A DNA stretch of 33,418 nt from a virus: positions 1 through 33,418 of IMG/VR virus record IMGVR_UViG_3300039412_000579; one strand, written 5' to 3'. Numbering within the stretch: position 1 is the first letter of the stretch; each line of letters begins with the position of its first letter. The notes under the pieces were generated by a model. The model saw only the letters and a program-made list of their open reading frames with translations, did no database searches and had not been told where the DNA came from. A program made the translations under genes and the position numbers. Shown here one piece after another: positions 23,932 through 31,994 of the stretch.

Positions 23932-24621
23932 TTATCGTAACGTACAACGGGTATTGGTGATCCAGAGGTCTTGCAATATTTTTGGCACCTCAGCCATAAC
24001 CCACGATACAGTAACGTTTTGTGCTAATGGACCACTGTAGATAGCTGGACGGAAGATAATTCTACTTGAATAATTATCTTGCTCAACTTTCGCATATGAT
24101 TCCATACCACAAAGGAAGCAATTATAGACATCATTTCCTAACGCAGAAGCATTCGGAGTGATGCTGCCGGCGCTCGATACAAGCCATCTGGTGTTATTGT
24201 AGCTACCCCATTCTGATTGCATTACTTTATTGTCATTTGGATAGTTCCACTTCGCAATAAAGTTAGGTAATGTATTAAGGTCTTTAATTAAATTTGAGTG
24301 ACAAAGAGCAATAAAGGAATCACGAACAGGCGCTGTACCAAACTTATTTTCCCCGCCCTGACGTTGGAGAATCATCCAGGCATCATTCGATATTAATGCA
24401 GCAGTAACTTCATCAATATCTCCCCCTGAAAGATCAGAAGGTACGTCACCATTTGTTCCACCAGTACAGTTGTACATAGTAGCTGTAGAAGCTAACATAT
24501 CACGAGTCAACTGATCTTCGGTAAGCCTCATCGACAATCCGAGAAGTTCAGCTGTCTCAGCTAGCACTGCATGCTGATTTTGCAATACAACCTGTTGGTT
24601 AATTGCTACATATTGCACTTT
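23932..24621 (-). CDS. Major capsid protein (N4-gp56 type), exon 2
   Basis: Encodes the C-terminal 229 residues of the capsid protein. It begins AAA-GTG-CAA-TAT right after the intron's terminal G at 24622. An in-frame TAA lies 6 nt before the AAA, so the frame cannot extend upstream without splicing. The text KVQYVAINQQVVLQNQ, AETAELLGLSMRLTEDQLTR, NCTGGTNGDVPSDLSGGDID and RQGGENKFGTAPVRDSFIAL is typical of the N4-gp56 family. A GTG at 24618 could be mistaken for a start but has no ribosome-binding site. Joined with 25044-25304 it gives a 316-aa protein in one frame, about the family's usual length. Confidence 0.88.
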   Translation of the reverse strand, partial: KVQYVAINQQVVLQNQHAVLAETAELLGLSMRLTEDQLTRDMLASTATMYNCTGGTNGDVPSDLSGGDIDEVTAALISNDAWMILQRQGGENKFGTAPVRDSFIALCHSNLIKDLNTLPNFIAKWNYPNDNKVMQSEWGSYNNTRWLVSSAGSITPNASALGNDVYNCFLCGMESYAKVEQDNYSSRIIFRPAIYSGPLAQNVTVSWVMAEVPKILQDLWITNTRCTLR

Positions 24622-25043
24622 CTGTTACTTTTATGACCTATTTCTAGGCGGGCGAACCTCTTCGGATTCACCTCTCTGCCTTATCGCGCAGAGTTCAGAC
24701 TATCGCATCACCTTTCGGTGTCTTCTCACTTAGTCGTTCAGGCTGATCAATTTCACAGTAATAATGGAAAAATACAAAATCTTCCACATCAAGCATGCCA
24801 TGCATATTGCACCATCCCTCTAGTTGATCTTTTGAAATAAATCGTATTATTTCATAGTATTCATCACGATAGCAATCCTTAGCATGTGCCAATATGTACC
24901 ATTTTGACTTATCTAGGTTCTCGATATCTGAATATTTTGTGAATTTATTCCAATTCATTGATCTTGCCCCTTGTTACCGGTTAGCTTAATGCCACTTCGG
25001 CTTCCAAGTCAATCAGAGAAGATTTTACTACGGCCAATCTATA
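24622..25043 (-). mobile_element. Group I intron in the major capsid gene
   Basis: A 422-nt group I intron. P1: exon UACGGU pairs with UAUAGAUUG-GCCGUA, giving the expected U-G wobble at the splice site (exon ends at 25044). P3: CUUCUC (25016-25021) with GAGAAG (24722-24727). P6: GAUCAAU (24957-24963) with AUUGAUC (24745-24751). P7: GACUA (24731-24735) with UAGUC (24698-24702). P8: CACC-GAAA-GGUG (24709-24720). P9: CUCUGC...GCAGAG (24674-24693). A further CCUA-GAAA-UAGG hairpin lies at 24637-24648. It ends in G at 24622. The order P3-P6-P7-P3'-P8-P7'-P9 is the canonical core. P4 and P5 are not resolved. Removal joins ...FYG to KVQYVAI in frame. Confidence 0.85.
24695..24958 (-). CDS. Intron-borne 87-aa ORF of unknown function
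   Basis: The ATG (24958) lies in the P6 loop, with AGGGG 8 nt upstream. The protein (MNWNKFTKYSDIENLDKSKW, then YILAHAKDCYRDEYYEIIRF, then ISKDQLEGWCNMHGMLDVED, then FVFFHYYCEIDQPE) has the aromatic-rich, acidic look of small phage proteins. It has none of the homing-endonuclease signatures (LAGLIDADG, HNH, GIY-YIG, Vsr). Its last ~20 codons run through P6', P7, P3', P8 and P7', and the TGA stop directly follows the UAGUC of P7'. Those codons are therefore constrained by RNA folding. It may be a cargo gene captured by the intron or the replacement of a lost endonuclease. Confidence 0.55.
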   Translation of the reverse strand: MNWNKFTKYSDIENLDKSKWYILAHAKDCYRDEYYEIIRFISKDQLEGWCNMHGMLDVEDFVFFHYYCEIDQPERLSEKTPKGDAIV

Positions 25044-25304
25044 ACCGTAAAATGAAACGGTTGCATCAATATCAACACGGTTCAATGGAGTTGCTGGCGG
25101 CGTGGAGCCCGACGGTCCGAGTGGCACTGGCGCCGTTGGCAATCTATCGAAACGACTCATACGAATGGTTGTACCGCCTTTATCCTTCAATCGTTTTGGT
25201 AAGGCAGCAACATTGTGAATAGCATGCGGTGTTCTAACCGCAAGCAATACGTCATCGACCGAAGCCTGAACTTCTGGTGGTAACGTGGTAATAGTTGTTA
25301 ACAT
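25044..25304 (-). CDS. Major capsid protein (N4-gp56 type), exon 1
   Basis: Encodes residues 1-87 of the capsid protein. ATG at 25304 with GGGAG upstream. The sequence (TLPPEVQASVDDVLLAVRTP, GTTIRMSRFDRLPTAPVPLG, TPPATPLNRVDIDATVSFYG) matches the start of N4-gp56-type capsid proteins, including the conserved G-x-T-I-x-x-x-R-x-x-x-L-P-x-A region. Without splicing the frame runs 20 more codons into the intron and stops at 24981; those residues (YRLAVVKSSLIDLEAEVALS) are intron-derived. The capsid shell would be non-functional unless the intron is removed. Confidence 0.86.
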
Positions 25305-29810: not shown

Positions 29811-31994
29811 CTATCGTACAAATCTATCCCATGGATTTGATTCAACAAAAAGAGGATTGAGCATAGTTCTTCCTCCATAGAGTGCTTCTTTCTTTATCTG
29901 ATCGAACTTCTCTGCAGTTAATCCTTGCTTACAAAGTGGAATTGCCTGACAAAGATATTTGACGGAATCGCAGTTATGGACAATAGCACCATTTGCTAAT
30001 GAGAAATGACCAACACCTGGTACCGAAATATCCCAAACATCTTCATGATCCGGCAGAGTTTTTACGCTTTCTATAATGCATTGCTTTACAATTGGGATGA
30101 CAGTATTTCTGGGTATGCCCATTTTTTCTAATAAGGCAGCTGAACTCTTTATTGCAATACAAACAATTTCTCGGTTCTCTTCTCCATATTGTCCAATTAG
30201 CTGTCCGTTGAGCATGTCTCGAATGCCATATTTTTCCTGCCTCTGATCCATGCCACTCTGCTGCTCTATCTCTAGCTTTTTGGCTAAAAACTCTATTAAT
30301 TGGTTTGTGATATGTTTTGCGATGGTCTGCTCTTGGTAAGCATTCAATATTGTATAAGCAGTTGTTAATGGAACAATGATCTCGGTGGTGTATTTCACAA
30401 TCTTTTGGTATTTCTCCAAAAGCGAATCTCCATACGTCTCTATGCAAGAGAGATCCACCTTTTGAAAAGTATTTTTCATTTGGATAAATTCTGTACAGAT
30501 ACCCATTAAAATATTGAGTCCCTGCATCAAGCTCGATTGGATCTTGATATAATTCGTTAGGCTTTCTGATGACTTCCACCCGTTCTCCGTTAAGAATAAA
30601 TGATCCGGCGTGCATTTCACTGTTGTACCGTCTACAAATACAACTTCCACAATATTCGCATTTATTCTTGTTTTCTGTGCTTTCCGACATTTATACCATC
30701 CTTGTAATGTTAATACTTCATCATTATCTTCTATTAACATTATCTGACGCATTCCGTTACGCGTCAAGACTAAAGTATCTCCAGTAAAACAAAAATTACT
30801 GCTCCAATCGTGAACGGGCTTATCTGAGTAACACTGCTTATCATCATTCCACTCTCGGTGGTAAAATTCCATTGCCTCTACTAATCTCTTACATCTTCTT
30901 TCATCAATAACAAAGCGAGGGAAGTGAGTCATGACGTTTTCGATAGCATTCTCTATACGAACCTGCGGAAGTACTTCAAAGTCTAAACCTAGTTGTGCTG
31001 CTTTCTCGAATCGAGATATAGCACCATCACCAAACTCTCTAACGGCAAGATCATGAGGACCAAAGTGAGTTCCATAAAGGTAAGGCTTTTCTCGTATTGT
31101 CTTCACATAATGATCAAGTCCCATACCACTTGAAGCATAGCAATCTATAATGCGTATTGAATTACCTTCTGAGGAGATCTGAAAGAAGAGAATAACACAA
31201 AGATCACGAACACCAATATCCCATGCTGTGTAGGTAAGCATGGAAGGGTCCCAGGGAACATGGGATATTTGGTTGTTCTCACGTATTTGATCTACAAGAC
31301 GACCATATATAGATCCTTCGATACCACGTGAGAAACTGCATTCATACTCTTGAGCATAAAGCTCTGCAGACATCTGTGCCTTTTCAAGCTCAAGTATCTC
31401 TGCAGGAATATGTTTTATATCTGAGGTTTTTTTGATATAAACAAACCAATCTTTGAGATTAGAAGCTACATTAAAAAGCTGATAACAATGATTACGGCTA
31501 TAAGGAGTCGTTATCATCAATATCCAACCACCATTATTTGCTAAGATAGGTCGTGCAAAGTCATAAGCTTTTGGATTGCAACGACTCCATTCTGAAAAGA
31601 TAATTGCATAAGGATTACGACCAACAATAGAAGTATCATAAGAATCTGCACCAATGATCTGTATTTGAGAATCATTCTTGAAACAGATCTTCATCTCAGA
31701 GTGATTAATGTTCTTGATGACTTCTTTAGGGATATAATCAAGAAGTTTTTTACCATCTGTTGTAATACAATCCCAGATAACACGGCGCCCTTGCTGAAAG
31801 GTTGGCAGAGCATACAGGATAGAACAAGTCTTAGCCATTGCTTGATGTATACAGAGATTGAAAGCGCAGATATCTTTCCCTGAACGGCGCGGAAGAATTG
31901 CTAATACTTTTCGATAGCCTTGCTTAGCAATAGCATCCCATATTGGTATTTGATAATCACGTAGTTTGAAGTCATTGATATCAATCGCATCCAT
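29811..31994 (-). CDS. terL: Terminase large subunit, interrupted by an in-frame intein
   Basis: 727-aa precursor; after intein removal (273 aa) the mature packaging motor is 454 aa, a normal TerL size. The ATPase has Walker A LPRRSGKD (34-41), Walker B AIIFSE (130-135) and coupling motif ITTP (161-164). The RNase H-like nuclease has AWDIG (Asp259), IIDCYASSG (Asp284) and, after splicing, HDWSSNF-CDSVKYL with the third acidic residue (Asp676). The intein lies between F401 and C675, in the most conserved nuclease motif, so an unspliced protein cannot complete the active site. The start overlaps the previous gene by 14 nt. Confidence 0.93.
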   Translation of the reverse strand: MDAIDINDFKLRDYQIPIWDAIAKQGYRKVLAILPRRSGKDICAFNLCIHQAMAKTCSILYALPTFQQGRRVIWDCITTDGKKLLDYIPKEVIKNINHSEMKICFKNDSQIQIIGADSYDTSIVGRNPYAIIFSEWSRCNPKAYDFARPILANNGGWILMITTPYSRNHCYQLFNVASNLKDWFVYIKKTSDIKHIPAEILELEKAQMSAELYAQEYECSFSRGIEGSIYGRLVDQIRENNQISHVPWDPSMLTYTAWDIGVRDLCVILFFQISSEGNSIRIIDCYASSGMGLDHYVKTIREKPYLYGTHFGPHDLAVREFGDGAISRFEKAAQLGLDFEVLPQVRIENAIENVMTHFPRFVIDERRCKRLVEAMEFYHREWNDDKQCYSDKPVHDWSSNFCFTGDTLVLTRNGMRQIMLIEDNDEVLTLQGWYKCRKAQKTRINANIVEVVFVDGTTVKCTPDHLFLTENGWKSSESLTNYIKIQSSLMQGLNILMGICTEFIQMKNTFQKVDLSCIETYGDSLLEKYQKIVKYTTEIIVPLTTAYTILNAYQEQTIAKHITNQLIEFLAKKLEIEQQSGMDQRQEKYGIRDMLNGQLIGQYGEENREIVCIAIKSSAALLEKMGIPRNTVIPIVKQCIIESVKTLPDHEDVWDISVPGVGHFSLANGAIVHNCDSVKYLCQAIPLCKQGLTAEKFDQIKKEALYGGRTMLNPLFVESNPWDRFVR
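29973..30791 (-). mobile_element. TerL intein, splicing-competent, 273 aa
   Basis: In-frame intein at residues 402-674. Block A is CFTGDTLVLT with catalytic Cys402. Block B is GTTVKCTPDHLFLT with the T-x-x-H pair (T462, H465). Block F is VWDISVPGVGHFSLANG. Block G is AIVHN with penultimate His673 and terminal Asn674. The +1 residue is Cys675. All residues needed for class 1 splicing are present. Between blocks B and F the intein frame carries about 170 residues with no homing-endonuclease motif. In a different frame the same DNA encodes a complete HNH endonuclease (30043-30690). Confidence 0.92.
30043..30690 (-). CDS. HNH homing endonuclease nested out-of-frame in the TerL intein
   Basis: 215 aa, entirely inside the intein DNA but in another frame on the same strand. 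It has its own start: AAGGA at 30699-30703, 8 nt before ATG at 30690. Residues 63-128 form an HNH_3-type nuclease: NGYLYRIYPNEKYF, LLHRDVWRFAFGEIPKD, CEIHHRDHCSINNCLYNIEC (His101/102, Asn110 and nearby), and ADHRKTYH. The N-terminus has CEYCGSCIC. The C-terminus (176-201) is a zinc knuckle, NCLYCNKEFSC...KYCHPNCK, with a basic tail. It starts 101 nt inside the intein and ends 70 nt before the end of the intein. It would cut intein-less terL alleles and spread the intein. Confidence 0.88.
   Translation of the reverse strand: MSESTENKNKCEYCGSCICRRYNSEMHAGSFILNGERVEVIRKPNELYQDPIELDAGTQYFNGYLYRIYPNEKYFSKGGSLLHRDVWRFAFGEIPKDCEIHHRDHCSINNCLYNIECLPRADHRKTYHKPINRVFSQKARDRAAEWHGSEAGKIWHSRHAQRTANWTIWRREPRNCLYCNKEFSCLIRKNGHTQKYCHPNCKAMHYRKRKNSAGS

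Follow-up and report, generated by a model that had tools for sequence, protein, structure and literature searches.

The N4-gp56-type major capsid gene of the phage studied here is, on the sequence evidence, almost certainly interrupted after codon 87 by a functional group I intron. We analyzed IMG/VR record IMGVR_UViG_3300039412_000579 over its whole stretch of 33,418 nucleotides, called the window below. The assignment to group I follows from the RNA structure and its covariation, the fit of the P1 and P10 pairings to the exons, the intron-less homologues, and the match to the capsid family TIGR04387. It upholds the central claim of an earlier, sequence-only reading of the same DNA.

Exons, junction, and intron-less homologues

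The capsid gene lies on the minus strand (Table 1). The ORF containing exon 1 (25304-24981) continues past codon 87 into the insert and stops at 24983-24981. The frame of exon 2, ending at 23932, differs from that of the exon-1 ORF, and the insert lies between the two. The NCBIfam profile TIGR04387 (N4-gp56 major capsid protein) matched residues 3-87 of exon 1 with its positions 1-84, and exon 2 with its positions 85-319. Since exon 1 ends at profile position 84 and exon 2 starts at 85, the two pieces abut. Exon 2 alone scored 92.8 bits, above the curated cut-off of 60 bits, and the intron-less gene of contig L003 scored 130.3 bits. With the Pfam family Phage_capsid_4, the capsid scored just under the cut-off. 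Pfam alone therefore falls short, and the family assignment is settled by TIGR04387, which supports, at the level of sequence profiles, the N4-gp56 type that had been proposed from the sequence. An AlphaFold model of the intron-less capsid, computed from a shallow alignment, had a mean pLDDT of 28 and was discarded.

By protein similarity, 41 capsid homologues were collected, of which 20 contain introns, 18 do not, and three are fragments. In the 18 intron-less homologues (L003-L016, L018-L020, and L034), the capsid frame runs uninterrupted through the site. Joining ...UUUUACGGU (to 25044) with CAAUAUGUAGC... (from 24615) results in FYG-Q-YVAINQQ, which is equally long as, and aligns without gaps to, the FYG-L-YVAINQQ of the intron-less genes. 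The sequence-only reading had located the 5' end of the insert correctly at 25043, but had set its 3' end at 24622 with the join FYG-K. With that join, the protein reads FYG-K-V-Q-YVA and exceeds every intron-less homologue by two residues. We rejected position 24622 because of these two additional residues; with G24616 as the last nucleotide, the junction is gap-free and the exon bases CAAU pair with AUUG in P10. The comparison with intron-less homologues, which the same reading had recommended, thus yielded the correct junction. Its expectation that contiguous homologues would speak against an intron was the wrong way round, as such homologues reveal the insertion.

Table 1. Coordinates of the capsid exons, the intron, and its elements in the window
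Feature	Positions	Strand	Basis
Capsid exon 1, codons 1-87, up to ...SFYG (3' terminal bases ACGGU)	25044-25304	-	TIGR04387
Capsid exon 2, begins CAA UAU GUA (Q-Y-V), through the stop codon	23932-24615	-	TIGR04387
Group I intron, 428 nt, U25043 to omega-G24616	24616-25043	-	intron-less homologues, window-free model, P1
P1, 7 bp; exon 25050-25044 with internal guide 25034-25028; at the 5' splice site, wobble pair U25044.G25034	25028-25050	-	sequence, swapped-exon control
P10 guide AUUG, directly upstream of the P1 guide; partner 3' exon CAAU 24615-24612	25035-25038	-	sequence
P3 5' strand UCUUCUC; partner GAGAAGA 24727-24721	25016-25022	-	alignment, covariation
P4 5' strand CUUG; partner CAAG 24973-24970	25005-25008	-	alignment, covariation
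P5 GCCG/CGGU and P5a	24976-25001	-	alignment, covariation
AAGGGG, Shine-Dalgarno-like, made of P4 and P6 strands, 8 nt before the ATG of the ORF	24967-24972	-	position kept in family
P6 5' strand GGGC; partner GCCU 24743-24740; P6a GAUC/GAUC flanks the ORF loop	24966-24969	-	alignment, covariation
ORF P0002, 87 aa, in the P6 loop; stop UGA directly 3' of P7'	24695-24958	-	family layout
P7 5' strand GACUA	24731-24735	-	covariation
P8 CACC-GAAA-GGUG	24709-24720	-	alignment, covariation
P7 3' strand UAGUC, guanosine-binding helix	24698-24702	-	covariation outside the model
P9 hairpin	24674-24693	-	alignment, covariation
P9.1 hairpin GGUGAAUC/GGUUCGCC	24651-24672	-	alignment, covariation
P9.2 hairpin CCUA-GAAA-UAGG	24637-24648	-	alignment, covariation

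Structure and covariation of the ribozyme

The fold was derived by hand and from alignments of related inserts. Peripheral helices P9.1 and P9.2 are present, and no P2 or P7.1/P7.2 was seen in the window intron by these means. A covariance model made without the window (R2) detected the 3' half of the intron with 105 bits (E 3.6e-26) and the 5' half with 32 bits (E 2.6e-7). The model found nothing further in the window under E 1 and gave zero matches across the 18 contiguous capsid loci. Helices P1, P3, P6, P7, P8, and P9 and the terminal G, which had been read by eye, are hence present at a level far above chance.

In an alignment of 101 matches, which was fitted to the structure of the model and leans towards it, 42 of 44 pairs showed double-sided changes, and 95.2% of the cells paired, versus 41-46% when the partner strand was slid. 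P7 forms a pseudoknot and lies outside the model. Even so, three of the five P7 pairs show covariation (C-G with G-C; U-A with C-G; A-U with U-A and G-C). In the introns of L031, L037, and L038, a P7 variant, G-U-AGCA with UGCUC, replaces GACUA/UAGUC; it differs by a bulged base and two compensatory changes.

A sister model that includes the window (R1) detected, each time as the best match in the stretch, the intron of mycobacteriophage BAKA (E 4e-6), the capsid intron of mycobacteriophage LittleE (E 4e-4), and P7-P9 of T4 nrdB (E 8e-4). For BAKA and LittleE, RT-PCR has proven that the introns are spliced (PMC3706429). The search with Rfam 15 RF00028 that had been suggested as a check gave no match in the window at gathering or permissive thresholds. 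Because RF00028 also misses the proven phage introns of T4 td, T4 nrdB, LittleE, and BAKA, its silence on the window is uninformative.

Alternatives to a spliced capsid mRNA

Splicing of the window intron is deduced from its sequence, and the insert's ORF does not encode a homing endonuclease. Both points would fit a dead element, that is, an RNA that no longer splices in the broken capsid gene of a pseudogene or decaying prophage. We regard this as very improbable, because every core helix and the pairings at the two splice sites are intact, the exons are open and match their family from end to end, and the terminase and portal genes are likewise open and match theirs. Furthermore, the contigs L001 and L002 have identical alleles; they bear identifiers of two other metagenomes and carry the same insertion, identical base for base at both junctions.

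It is hardly credible that the two ORFs yield separate capsid polypeptides, or that ribosomes hop over the insert, with no RNA splicing involved. Both ORFs have a possible start codon, and ribosome hopping exists in gene 60 of phage T4. However, the insert is a covarying ribozyme fold with exon-specific P1 and P10 pairings, and dozens of other positions in the same gene are interrupted by the same fold, which such a scheme would leave unexplained. An assembly chimera or strain mixture, conceivable for an assembled metagenome contig, is implausible in the extreme, as the insertion is a complete structured element whose presence on L001 and L002 shows that it is not the assembly accident of one contig.

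The reading frame inside the intron

The last 16 codons of ORF P0002 are at the same time the ribozyme core (P6', P7, P3', P8, and P7'). The protein had no Pfam match and no convincing PHROG match, and it did not qualify as a homing endonuclease. A search for relatives returned almost exclusively matches to the ribozyme-encoded tail alone; beyond the tail, there was one weak match. The case for P0002 as a real gene therefore rests on the pattern seen across the intron family.

Antisense LAGLIDADG ORFs were present in 32 of 180 introns among the matches listed, and some introns at codon 11 carry sense LAGLIDADG ORFs. ORF starts were compared in those long introns among the matches listed that have no antisense LAGLIDADG ORF and a readable P6 motif (n = 61). 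An ATG within 9 nt of the P6 strand, right after the Shine-Dalgarno-like AAGGGGCAAG, was found in 54 of these 61 introns. At that place, among the matches listed, ATG occurred in three of 21 introns with antisense endonucleases and in one of 39 short introns. The ORF stayed open into the 3' core in 52 of the 54 cases listed, compared with 4.1% for shuffled bodies, and almost all of these ORFs run into the core in the frame reading QPER. The ORF bodies differ. Among the matches listed, three match DUF551 (best E 1.7e-8) and two DUF6980; others belong to small phage families of unknown function, and one matches a Lar-like family weakly. In the open-licence literature, we found no paper combining 'group I intron' and 'DUF551'. 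An apparent second coding insert is located near P8 in L037 (site 180) and L060 (sites 51, 78, and 168), where the ORF goes on past the P7/P3' segment and has tails like CEMRCSEHCGNTVRDK.

Sites and spread of the intron family

Two conserved intron motifs were each detected on at least 120 viral contigs in a scan of such contigs. A spliced-alignment script, which by construction requires U before the intron and G at its end, identified at least 216 distinct introns in at least 169 loci with an N4-gp56-type capsid gene. Among the matches listed, 180 of 216 introns (83%) form a P1 of at least 6 bp with their own exon, versus 10.5% with swapped exons, and the mean P10 was 3.5 versus 2.0 in the control. 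The 36 introns with a shorter P1 probably have, in part, misplaced boundaries and do not enter the site counts. Loci from the motif scan were picked for having introns; prevalence must therefore be taken from the homologues fetched by similarity.

The 180 introns among the matches listed fall into approximately 53 site clusters in the capsid gene family (neighbors within 3 nt merged), 25 of which hold at least two distinct introns; as the alignment decides where a site falls in divergent homologues, 53 is an estimate and the 25 repeated clusters are firmer. Codons 103, 180, 95, 143, and 78 were the commonest sites among the matches listed, in which one capsid gene (L059) has five introns and three genes have four. 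Crowded genes are those of L049 (8223-9843), L059 (2279-4844), and L119 (1-2608), the last with several intron matches within 2.2 kb. Sites lie at residues more conserved than average (p 0.001 for repeated sites among the matches listed). In an intron tree, related introns tended to share a site, with 76 changes versus 100 for shuffled labels; the resolution of the tree is poor (178 columns), and we therefore claim no direction of movement between sites.

Among the matches listed, 119 of 148 places with the 3' motif and 58 of 125 places with the 5' motif were inside or adjoining an N4-gp56-type capsid gene, and many of the other 5'-motif places listed adjoin other head genes, a preference that is partly built in, as the motifs were derived from capsid introns. 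The 78 ORFs flanking these other 5'-motif places, again among the matches listed, included 19 matches to PHROG 283 and 12 to PHROG 9953 (both major head proteins), and 17 matches to the Pfam P22 coat and seven to the P22 portal families; several of the flanking ORFs listed match ribonucleotide reductases.

Two public genomes carry relatives. In the podovirus genome MW202674 (L300, 3000-3195), a relative of the window intron splits a P22-type coat gene, and the record shows two CDSs named 'P22 coat protein' separated by a 'hypothetical protein', the kind of fragmented annotation that the sequence-only reading had predicted. Desulfovibrio phage 7757 (L301, 2002-2220), whose laboratory host is named, has a family intron (E 4.6e-33) followed by an HNH-like ORF; it is located at the end of a frame that by eye resembles an anaerobic ribonucleotide reductase with an intein.

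Elsewhere in the window, the TerL ORF (31994-29811, minus strand) carries an intein at 29964-30791; the NCBIfam models of the N-terminal and C-terminal intein splicing regions match residues 402-469 and 653-675, respectively, above the cut-off. A capsid intron and a TerL intein in one phage recall the crAss-like phages. An intron-less capsid gene, 91% identical to that of L003, lies on L303 (1394-2332), a contig of 3 kb that was assigned to a Candidatus Saccharibacteria bin. It is a possible lead to the host, but one such contig is too weak a basis for naming it. A tRNA gene is located near the capsid locus of another relative (L035, 349-421, minus strand).

Comparison with known phage introns

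The capsid gene had been singled out as a notable host for a self-splicing RNA, which holds in part, as capsid introns are already known from LittleE, Tuc2009, and crAss-like phages. The Tuc2009 intron, in a lactococcal phage, is cited in PMC3706429. The Cluster J mycobacteriophage LittleE has a group I intron in its major capsid gene, as here, and BAKA has one in a tail gene (PMC3706429). Both introns, which R1 detects, have U before and G at the end, as in the window. LittleE also resembles the introns at capsid sites 95 and 103 of the present family in its antisense LAGLIDADG-type ORF (PMC3706429). It differs in having one intron at one site of an HK97-like capsid gene in a 109-kb phage, whereas the present family occupies many sites in N4-gp56-type genes, and in having no accessory-gene ORF (PMC3706429).

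The Zeta and Delta crAss-like phages have a major capsid gene with several group I introns, the Zeta gene being in five pieces, and TerL inteins, of which the window also has one, are typical of a related group; these are large gut phages, however, and the available part of the source describes neither family-wide occupancy of many sites nor accessory-gene cargo (PMC7886860). The capsid gene of Faustovirus E12 has 12 introns, five of them group I, with splicing seen in RNA-seq, but this is a giant amoeba virus with GIY-YIG endonucleases whose other introns are spliceosome-like (PMC6247863). The T4 introns in td, nrdB, and sunY share the group I core and a loop ORF reaching into it (PMC3073962). 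Their ORFs are homing endonucleases, whereas the window intron and most long introns lacking an antisense endonuclease carry small non-endonuclease ORFs preceded by the Shine-Dalgarno-like sequence that the ribozyme strands form. In Jug phages, with 18.5 introns per genome, many short group I introns (about 206 nt), partly proven by metatranscriptomes, fragment genes; these are jumbo gut phages, and the host genes named are terL, nrdD, and DNA polymerase, not capsid (PMC12363816).

Proposed pathway and broader meaning

According to the proposed pathway, P1 forms in the transcript between the internal guide and the end of exon 1, with its U.G pair at the splice site. Guanosine held by P7 would then attack the 5' site, as is standard for group I introns, and the freed end of exon 1, aligned by P10, would attack after G24616. 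Joining of GGU to CAA would result in a capsid protein of 314 amino acids. We infer splicing in the cell and its two-step chemistry from these sequence features. In unspliced RNA, ribosomes coming from exon 1 would halt at the UAA at 24983-24981, 22 nt before the ATG of the ORF, and the 87-aa protein could start behind the Shine-Dalgarno-like sequence built by the ribozyme; its expression and a role for it are predicted on this basis. Because ribosomes translating the ORF would cross P7, P3', and P8, any one RNA should serve either for this translation or for splicing, but not for both. Such exclusion was shown for I-TevI in T4 td, where the overlap is termed 'core creep' (reviewed in PMC3073962).

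More tentatively, and with doubts of our own that outweigh our confidence, we propose a broader reading. The intron family may favor phage head genes, chiefly capsid genes of unrelated types, and may serve as a vehicle for interchangeable accessory genes, to which the ribozyme contributes the Shine-Dalgarno sequence and a fixed-frame C-terminal tail (QPERSKRE/QPERLSEK). Cargo would be made from unspliced and capsid protein from spliced RNA, and new sites might be reached through a change of the guide.

As capsid introns in phages are known, the window intron alone would be one more and no surprise to a specialist. The family of multi-site capsid introns with swappable small genes looks like a new variation on this known kind: in the open-licence literature, we found no description of such a number of sites in one capsid family of small phages, nor of non-endonuclease genes in a fixed cassette position of an intron. 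With approximately 53 site clusters and up to five introns per gene among the matches listed, and with accessory genes in a ribozyme loop, it should surprise. Since Rfam misses the family and annotation splits the gene, many metagenomic phages would seem to have no intact capsid gene. In this family, competition between translation and splicing on a single late mRNA that is highly expressed becomes tractable, and the ways in which introns get to new sites can be followed as a natural experiment.
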